Assembly: GCF_000147695.2 (NCBI RefSeq)
Contig: NC_015958.1
Span: forward strand, 1,790,001 to 1,854,000
DNA: 64,000 bases
Source: Thermoanaerobacter wiegelii Rt8.B1
Lineage (GTDB): Bacteria; Bacillota; Thermoanaerobacteria; Thermoanaerobacterales; Thermoanaerobacteraceae
Direction of reading: 5' to 3'
Shown here: positions 36,415-64,000 of the stretch, piece by piece
Numbering within the stretch: the stretch's first letter is position 1
Layout of the letters: each line of letters opens with the position of its first letter
Made by a program: the position numbers and the translations under genes
The notes under the pieces: generated by a model
Seen by the model: the letters and a program-made list of their open reading frames with translations, nothing else
What the model was told of the DNA's origin: nothing
Database searches by the model: none

Positions 36415-36440
36415 AAGCATTGATATTCTATTCAATGCTT
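36415..36440 (+). terminator. Terminator hairpin of the DUF1540 gene, left duplicate
   Basis: Arms AAGCATTGA and TCAATGCTT around an 8-base loop, ten bases after the DUF1540 stop. The hairpin is followed by CAG (the start of the repeat element), not by its T tract. The same 26 bases recur exactly at 36769-36794, where the T-rich tail is still present. Confidence 0.75.
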
Positions 36441-36768
36441 CAGTTTGTTGACAAAGTTAAAAAATATTCAAAGGAGATATTTTGCATCGTCGCTCCGATG
36501 TTCCAAAGCGACAAAACTAAAGCTCGACCTTCAGGCTCCGGCAGGGTACCGGGCACAATCGGCATCCATGCCTTAAGGTGCCCGCCTCCGCCATCCCTGG
36601 CTTCGGCCCTGCCTACGCCCTCGGTCTTGCTAAGTTTCCCGGCAAGTAAGTAAGCTTGTTTTTTCTATTTTTGCTTTATCAAACTCTCTTACTTGAGTGC
36701 CGGGTTGCTTTGTAACAAGTCGCTCCTTATGCAAAATATCTCCTTTACGAAAGTTTGTCTACAGTCTG
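36441..36768 (+). mobile_element. GC-rich structured repeat element, copy 1 (328 bp)
   Basis: A non-coding element with terminal inverted repeats: GGAGATATTTTGCAT near the left end (about 36473) and its complement near the right end (about 36728-36743), plus outer GACAAAG/CTTTGTC-like ends. The core is GC-rich and folds into stems, including GTCGCT/AGCGAC, CGGGCAC/GTGCCCG, GCAGGG/CCCTGC and GGCAT/ATGCC. A second copy on the other strand is at 50287-50550. Copy 1 holds about 60 extra bases that form the hairpin CCCGGCA...TGCCGGG (about 36638-36707). Exact 26-base terminator duplicates flank it. No protein is encoded, so it must be moved by others. Confidence 0.75.
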
Positions 36769-36794
36769 AAGCATTGATATTCTATTCAATGCTT
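36769..36794 (+). repeat. Right duplicate of the 26-base terminator hairpin
   Basis: Exact copy of 36415-36440. Here the hairpin is followed by TTCTTTC, so it is the working end of the original terminator. The pair is best read as a target duplication made when the 328-bp repeat was inserted. Confidence 0.75.
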
Positions 36795-44056: not shown

Positions 44057-44106
44057 TATACAAAGGTACCTCACCTCCTCTATACACCGTAGAGAAGTGG
44101 TAACAA

Positions 44107-44301
44107 ATACAGGCAGGTCTCCTGACTTAGGCTCATCACTCTTTACGCCTTCCCACCCTTCAAACATCGGGGACGGTTCCTTTTGTTTGAACAGGCAGTG
44201 GCATAATGTAAAGAGCTCACCATCACAGTGGCGGGACCGTGCAGGACTTTCACCTGCTTCCCTTTTAACCCAATTTTAGCTTCCAAATTGGGCACCTGTA
44301 T
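44107..44301 (-). promoter_or_regulatory. Cobalamin (B12) riboswitch upstream of nrdDG
   Basis: Minus-strand landmarks of the cobalamin aptamer in order: GAAGCAGGTGAAAGTCCTGC, ACGGTCCCGCCACTGTGAT, the B12 box GCCACTG, and AGTCAGGAGACCTGCC. The closing stem pairs ATACAGG (44107-44113) with CCTGTAT (44295-44301). A variable stem TTCAAACA/TGTTTGAA carries AAGGAACCGTCCCC in its loop, a short motif seen again at 51844. A terminator follows, so binding of B12 probably stops transcription into nrdD. Confidence 0.93.
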
Positions 44302-44361
44302 CTGAGAATATTAATTTTTCTACAAAATATAGTGTATAAAAATATTTATAACTCAATATTT

Positions 44362-50251: not shown

Positions 50252-50286
50252 AAAAAAGACACCCGCACATCTTCTGCGGATGTCCC
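50252..50286 (-). terminator. Terminator of the DUF1847 gene, outer duplicate
   Basis: Hairpin with arms GACACCCGCA/TGCGGATGTC (50258-50284, one wobble pair), followed on the minus strand by TTTTTT. The gene it serves ends at 50597, and the repeat element lies between them. A second, variant hairpin sharing the same 17 bases TCTTCTGCGGATGTCCC is at 50551-50577. Confidence 0.75.
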
Positions 50287-50550
50287 AGACTATAGACAAA
50301 CTTTCGGAAAGTAGATATTTTGCATAAGGAGTGACTTGTGACAAAGCGTTAACAAAACTTAGCGAGACCGAGGATGGAGGCAGGGCCGCAACCTTGTGAT
50401 GGCGGAGGCGGGCACCTGAGACAGGATGTCGAATGTGCCCGGGACCCTGCCGAAATCCGAAGGTCGAGCTTTAGCTTTGTCGCTTTGGAACTCCGGAGCG
50501 ACGATGCAAAATATCTGCTTTTAAAAATTTTTGACTTTGTCAAAAAGCTG
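50287..50550 (-). mobile_element. GC-rich structured repeat element, copy 2 (about 264 bp)
   Basis: Reverse complement of the element at 36441-36768, without that copy's extra hairpin. The ends hold AGATATTTTGCAT and its complement. The core stems GTCGCT/AGCGAC, CGGGCAC/GTGCCCG and GCAGGG/CCCTGC are all kept. An inner stem reads GACA/TGTC here and GGCA/TGCC in copy 1, a paired change that keeps the pairing. As in copy 1, it sits in sense orientation inside the terminator of the preceding gene, with a hairpin on each side. It encodes no protein. Confidence 0.75.
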
Positions 50551-50577
50551 AGACAGCCGTCTTCTGCGGATGTCCCG
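50551..50577 (-). repeat. Inner duplicate of the DUF1847 terminator hairpin
   Basis: GACAGCCG...CGGATGTC forms a hairpin with one mismatch, and it shares TCTTCTGCGGATGTCCC with the outer terminator at 50252-50286. It has no T tract on the minus strand, since the repeat element follows directly. Best read as one side of a diverged target duplication. Confidence 0.6.
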
Positions 50578-63850: not shown

Positions 63851-64000
63851 AATTTATAAAGCAAGATAGTATCAAGATACTGTAGGATAATTTTTAGTGA
63901 TAGTGACAATCATTTTAGCAAAATTTTCGTAACAATATAAAATATAGTATGTATAAAGTTAACATTTTGCACAGCTTGCTCCGGTGACAGAGCAGGCTAA
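63851..64000. other. Gene-free end of the window
   Basis: Contains a small perfect hairpin AGTATC/GATACT (63868-63881). The last 40 bases have TTTTGCACAGC followed by the stem TTGCTC/GAGCAG and CTAA. TTTTGCA followed by a GC-rich hairpin and CTAA recalls the start of the structured repeats at 36441 and 50550, but the sequence is cut off. No gene is seen. Confidence 0.3.

Follow-up and report, generated by a model that had tools for sequence, protein, structure and literature searches.

The repeat that occurs twice in the window (by which is meant the whole 64,000-nucleotide stretch of DNA analysed) is best explained as an IS1182-ended MITE that duplicates transcription terminators and carries a TwoAYGGAY-like RNA, with mobilisation in trans and CsrA binding added by inference; taken as a whole, this explanation is considered likely. 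The parts that sequence comparison has been able to demonstrate are the common terminal 15-mers, the targeting of terminators, the duplication of the whole hairpin, a covarying core and its homology to TwoAYGGAY. An earlier note, which described the two copies, missed the terminator hairpin on both sides, the roughly 40 copies in the genome, and the position of the RNA-like structure on the opposite strand.

Copies of the element in the window and in the genus

The features concerned are the following, in window positions.

36415 to 36440, no strand: left duplicate of the terminator hairpin AAGCATTGATATTCTATTCAATGCTT at copy 1, equal to 36769-36794 and single in L106 and L109
36441 to 36768, plus strand: MITE copy 1, long form with nested palindrome, 328 bp, ends CAG...CTG, flanked by an exact 26-bp hairpin duplication, with an empty site in relatives
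36514 to 36637, RNA-like strand minus: TwoAYGGAY-like structured core of copy 1 (R1 model match on the plus strand, 124.9 bits)
36561 to 36572, minus strand: copy 1 hairpin GGC-AUGGAU-GCC with ANGGAN loop (from sequence and loop statistics)
36590 to 36601, minus strand: copy 1 hairpin GCC-AGGGAU-GGC with ANGGAN loop (from sequence and loop statistics)
36638 to 36704, no strand: nested palindrome CCCGGCA...TGCCGGG of copy 1, found in a minority of copies and in either orientation
36769 to 36794, no strand: right duplicate of the terminator hairpin at copy 1, followed by TTCTTT
44095 to 44314, minus strand: cobalamin riboswitch (Rfam, 123 bits)
50258 to 50285, no strand: second terminator-hairpin duplicate beside copy 2, GGACATCCGCAGAAGATGTGCGGGTGTC on the minus strand (L018)
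50286 to 50550, minus strand: MITE copy 2, 265 bp, inverted-repeat ends partly decayed
50336 to 50493, plus strand: TwoAYGGAY-like core of copy 2 (RF01731 positions 1-168, 24.7 bits, E 0.11; R1 model 145.1 bits)
50551 to 50576, no strand: decayed terminator-hairpin duplicate beside copy 2, GGGACATCCGCAGAAGACGGCTGTCT on the minus strand (L018, a 25-bp stretch with 6 mismatches)
63964 to 64000, plus strand: third, divergent copy that begins at the right edge of the window and is cut there (G000:1853964-1854122, 79% identity)

The limits proposed earlier for copy 1, 36441-36768 on the plus strand, were exact; for copy 2 the location and the minus strand held, the start being 50286 and not 50287, so that the copy is 1 base longer. 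The GC-rich core said to be common to both is seen in their alignment, and the element has no transposase gene, the lists of reading frames giving only chance ones of 64-77 aa within or across it. Pairwise alignment places a nested palindrome of ~67 bp (36638-36704) in copy 1 that is missing from copy 2. Such palindromes, of 62-67 bp (CCCGGCACTCAAGTAAG...), occupy one fixed place in either orientation and also occur in L003, L019, L021, L036 and L054; their reading as an independent repeat was rejected, the matches in the own genome falling within or beside element copies. At gathering score, the cobalamin riboswitch is the sole Rfam match across the window.

Searching Thermoanaerobacter genomes with both copies, as had been proposed, revealed a multicopy family. 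In the DNA search the element appears as a dispersed repeat of ~265 bp, with 38-45 matches in the genome of the window (a single contig of 2.79 Mb), and is present in 10/10 congeneric genomes; a structure model counts 13-84 copies per genome in these congeners. The 127 copies that were located measure 250-333 bp and are scattered over unrelated sites, starting with CAGTTTGTTGACAAAG and finishing with AGTTTGTCTACAGTCTG (ends overall CAGNNTGTNGACAAA). The element thus has the properties by which a MITE is recognised, being short, devoid of a transposase gene, multicopy at unrelated sites, and bounded by terminal inverted repeats and a target-site duplication. RUP, Correia and MITEAba12 are MITEs moved in trans by IS transposases; the present element resembles them in its shortness, lack of a transposase gene, inverted ends, target duplication and high copy number, and differs in its strict terminator targeting, hairpin-length duplication and covarying RNA-like core. 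Two half copies (L025, L026) were considered as transposase carriers; no transposase was found in them and they are regarded as truncations. The draft genome G006 (e.g. L142, L143, L423-L448) has ~20 copies with equal search scores and no intact IS1182 gene assembled, perhaps a recent burst whose transposase was lost or is unassembled. No report on this repeat was found in the open-access library.

Duplicated terminator hairpins and IS1182-type ends

Among all fetched copies, the same intrinsic-terminator hairpin, of 17-33 bp, stands on both flanks of the element at 81 distinct sites, exactly so at 50. Complementarity holds for the six outermost pairs of this stretch in 87% of cells, versus 18-40% with one side shifted by 1-6 bases; since the stretch is symmetric and complementary about the hairpin, what is duplicated is the hairpin itself, longer hairpins giving longer duplications. 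Copy 1 has a 26-bp hairpin on each side, and its site is empty, with one hairpin only, in two related genomes (L106, L109). A same-species genome carries a different copy in that very hairpin, in opposite orientation and with its own duplication, which is an independent event, and the copy 1 terminator is an insertion hot spot. For copy 2 no clean empty site was found in relatives, because their downstream gene order differs. In L107 and L110, from two other genomes, the terminator of copy 1 holds a different, decayed element with a CAGACTTTAG... end.

Orphan ends in the genome led to insertion sequences that share 15-bp ends with the MITE and lie in the same genomes. Their 493-aa transposase belongs to the IS1182 family (NF033551, 490 bits against a cut-off of 270), with the Pfam domains DUF772 and DDE_Tnp_1_6. 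Copies of this IS in congeners, 1560-1570 bp long, are also flanked by duplicated hairpins, and the same signature, with repeats of 16-35 bp, marks IS1182 relatives with ends like CAGRCTGTTGA in Bacilli, Alkalihalophilus, Evansella, Paenibacillus, Thermotalea, an Atribacteria MAG and others. That the element is a MITE with IS1182-type ends is held with very little doubt; its mobilisation in trans by the IS1182 transposase is inferred, not shown. The previous suggestion of a non-autonomous mobile element or mobile non-coding RNA is thereby supported, the MITE combining IS1182-family ends with a structured core.

Within the IS1182 family, IS1272 and TnSha1 have been reported to target terminator hairpins, with loss of the hairpin and without duplication (PMC5678879, PMC4923244). 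They have in common with the present element the transposase family and the choice of terminator hairpins without a sequence consensus; however, they remove or delete the hairpin, whereas the element described here duplicates it. Hairpin duplication has been drawn only as a hypothetical 'pathway b' (PMC5678879), which the present data fit.

In this genome a group II intron interrupts one end of each of the four IS1182 copies, so that their own movement may be blocked; it is inferred that these copies, unable to move themselves, may yet supply transposase. The intron lies inside MITE and IS1182 ends alike, 8 nt past the duplicated hairpin (hairpin-CAGTTTGT|GTGCGCCC...), extending from 836 to ~1500 in L011 and L013 and found near 1331-1500 in L074, L084, L093 and L101; that of L013 matches RF02001, RF01998 and RF00029. 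An IS1182-like end (CAGGCTGTAGACAAG) adjoining a hairpin, with an unrelated interior, was also observed in L061 (1200-1340) and is possibly a second MITE family.

The structured core and TwoAYGGAY RNA

Compared with shuffled sequences, single-strand folding of the two window copies gave z = -8.8 and -7.9. The structure comprises 75 pairs, and in 34 copies less than 97% identical 95.8% of cells are paired, versus 37-49% with the partner slid by 1-3 columns. Compensatory changes occur at 22 pairs (76 cells), a result matched by 0/500 shuffles, and the covariation score is 0.126 versus 0.027-0.062 for slid controls; the shuffle control leaves relatedness uncorrected and the slid controls preserve it. 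The inner-stem change on which the earlier note relied (GGCA/TGCC to GACA/TGTC) is real: among the 34 copies the pair is GC in 16, AU in 15, UA in 2 and CG in 1, all four Watson-Crick combinations occurring, and it is never broken. Selection on structure, as then proposed, is supported by this covarying core and its homology to TwoAYGGAY. Helix 9 is disrupted by a block change in L012, L022, L027 and L159; the duplications there are still near-exact, so helix 9 is not required for mobility. One loop of window copy 2 no longer has its GGA.

On the strand opposite to that considered earlier, the core presents two apical hairpins with A-N-GGA-N loops, both at the tip of the rod in single-strand folds of the RNA-like strand. 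In the first loop (109 distinct elements) A is found in 108, the second base is T in 53, A in 31, C in 22 and G in 3, and the GGA positions are kept in 108, 107 and 109, followed mostly by T; in the second loop (96 elements) A is found in all 96, the second base is A in 49, T in 45 and G in 2, and the GGA positions are kept in 94, 96 and 96, followed by T in 61, G in 31, A in 3 and C in 1. These counts omit elements with shorter or altered loops. The second base is a pyrimidine, as AYGGAY would have it, in 75/109 and 45/96, respectively.

TwoAYGGAY RNA corresponds to Rfam RF01731 (Weinberg 2010 PMC2864571), with a gathering score of 43 bits. A permissive scan of diverse copies returned full-length matches in the genus at 40.1, 38.8, 37.1, 32, 30.8 and 29.2 bits, and one in a sister genus at 40.6 bits; in G022/G023, from another family of the order, TwoAYGGAY is found above the cut-off, at 49.7 and 53.7 bits. 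The window copies miss the cut-off (24.7 bits for copy 2, the best genus copy among those scored reaching 40.1), and for copy 1, searched against Rfam at E up to 10, TwoAYGGAY was not listed and no relevant weak match appeared; by the Rfam cut-off criterion the window copies are therefore not filed as members. Conversely, the R1 model, built from MITE and sister-genus copies alone without any accepted TwoAYGGAY member, matches accepted members full length in many distant genomes (E 3e-16 to 1e-5), and also recovers the repeat family of G023; these reciprocal matches make common descent with TwoAYGGAY well supported. The core shares with this RNA the full-length match (1-168) on one strand, the two GGA-loop hairpins and the long closing stems; it departs from it in the scores of the genus copies (at most 40.1 bits among those scored), in loops that are A-N-GGA-N and not strictly AYGGAY, and in being carried by a MITE that reaches 84 copies. 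On the evidence of these alignments and models, it is regarded as very probable that the core, read on the strand other than the one first proposed, is homologous to TwoAYGGAY. It had been stated that a match to a known IS end or Rfam family would undo the novelty of the repeat. This condition is fulfilled in part: the IS end is known in kind, and the Rfam match of the window copies stays below the curated cut-off. What is new is then no longer an RNA without a family but the mobility of a candidate RNA already described.

For Clostridia, CsrA binding by TwoAYGGAY has been put forward as an untested prediction (Gardner and Eldai 2014 PMC4333381); Bacillaceae-1 RNA (RF01690), which has two GGA hairpins and is likewise a candidate for binding CsrA (PMC4333381), was unmatched here and is compared by name only. 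The A-N-GGA-N loop with its free N is the shape of a CsrA site, in the absence of binding data. Among the genomes searched, csrA is present in all that bear the element, and the two genomes without csrA also lack the element; as csrA is present in 35/37 genomes this co-occurrence is not significant, and its near universality in the class makes it weak evidence for a CsrA role. Paired GGA-loop hairpins together with csrA in the hosts searched are what is expected of a CsrA-binding RNA, the csrA part counting for little. Genes that read into the element from one side only follow the TwoAYGGAY strand at 31 sites and the opposite strand at 15 (binomial p = 0.026), a bias that is suggestive, though modest, being one of several tests on sites that are not fully independent. 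A CsrA-binding role for the core is inferred without RNA-seq or binding data and stays tentative, somewhat short of an even chance.

Origin of the element, its mobilisation and their significance

TwoAYGGAY was found in 51/398 genomes of the phylum, with matches reaching at least 5-6 in many of them (only six candidates were scored per genome). Copies are dispersed and bounded by inverted repeats in G153, G322, G384, G093, G210 and G275. In G153, a distant genome, the ends are again CAGACTGTAGACAAA and a terminator hairpin flanks the element on either side, cleanly in L299 and L301 and less so in L300 and L298; the repeats of the other five have different ends and showed no clear hairpin duplication, G153 being the only clear case. 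No report of TwoAYGGAY mobility was found in the open-access library.

Several other accounts of the element have to be weighed. It is possible, if short of probable, that an RNA useful to the host came first and that functional TwoAYGGAY was repeatedly made the cargo of different miniature transposons, as the IS1182-type ends in G153 and this genus and the different terminal repeats in the other five genomes would suggest. The sister genus points the same way: six species have a single core beside a glycerate-kinase-like gene, always in the same intergenic region and lacking both MITE ends and a duplication, and this fixed copy is 95-98% identical versus 76-89% for the kinase gene, the exception being one close pair with the kinase at 97% and the cores 95% identical and oppositely oriented. 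This suggests a constraint apart from mobility; yet the core is dispensable in that genus, one species having half a core and two having none (G016-G018), and these losses, with the occurrence of both orientations, indicate that the sister-genus copy is either dispensable or an old MITE remnant. Upstream of the glycerate-kinase-like gene (L171-L176) the core is inverted in 2/6 species with colinear flanks, the borders being GACAATTTTGA/TCAAAATTGTC.

A purely selfish MITE, whose rod is kept as a DNA hairpin or inverted repeat aiding transposition or replication and whose likeness to TwoAYGGAY implies no RNA function, appears unlikely. It would agree with the folding of the entire element as a single rod, insertion in both orientations, the continued mobility of copies with helix 9 broken and the inverted sister-genus copy. 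However, invariant A_GGA loops with a free second base are hard to derive from selection on a DNA hairpin, the core is common to elements with quite different ends, and the sister-genus copy, without ends or duplication, is more conserved than its flanking genes in most species pairs.

It is still less likely that the MITE is moved by some transposase other than the 493-aa IS1182 enzyme, one that is extinct or unsampled. Only ~15 bp are common to MITE and IS, and the draft assemblies of G006 and G009 hold many, often identical, MITE copies and only broken IS1182 genes; against this, IS and MITE occur in the same genomes with identical ends and an identical, unusual target signature. A group IIC intron or other retroelement can hardly be entertained: such introns target terminators too, and a real group II intron sits in the ends of some copies, but the core matches no Rfam intron family, neither window copy gives an intron match, the intron of L011/L013 entered the MITE end separately and later, 8 nt from its edge, and group IIC introns leave the target hairpin unduplicated, so that the duplicated hairpin rules out this identity.

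For the preferred explanation, an IS1182-ended MITE carrying a TwoAYGGAY-like RNA, the following course is inferred. The IS1182-type DDE transposase would act in trans on the MITE and recognise the terminator hairpin, probably as a cruciform; on each strand the enzyme would link a 3' end of the element to the hairpin's 5' foot, and the ensuing repair would duplicate the hairpin. Insertion would thereby be placed after the stop codon with an intact terminator left downstream, and the element would be transcribed within the 3' region of host genes, an inference made without expression data. The two A-N-GGA-N loops may then bind CsrA and either titrate it or recruit it to the messenger, which is the weakest step of the explanation. 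The explanation also has to contend with a MITE-IS similarity limited to ~15 bp, and with window copies below the TwoAYGGAY cut-off, broken IS1182 genes in G006/G009, intron-interrupted IS ends and mobile copies in which helix 9 is broken.

The hairpin duplication at 81 sites, together with the empty sites, constitutes strong sequence evidence for a structure-directed choice of target, which, with duplication, had previously only been drawn as a possibility for the IS1182 transposase family; terminators would be safe landing sites, as one working copy survives the insertion. A broader conjecture, which may prove right but cannot be favoured at present, is that TwoAYGGAY RNAs are generally the cargo of terminator-seeking or other miniature transposons that spread a CsrA-binding structure to the 3' regions of dozens of genes, and that the transposase duplicates whole hairpins because it reads DNA shape and not sequence. 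If true, Clostridia would possess a CsrA sponge that moves, or a CsrA regulon open to rewiring. Transposition spreads an RNA that has been a regulatory candidate of unsettled function since 2010, so that its copy number, context and function are to be re-read, and some 80 insertions offer a natural set for testing.
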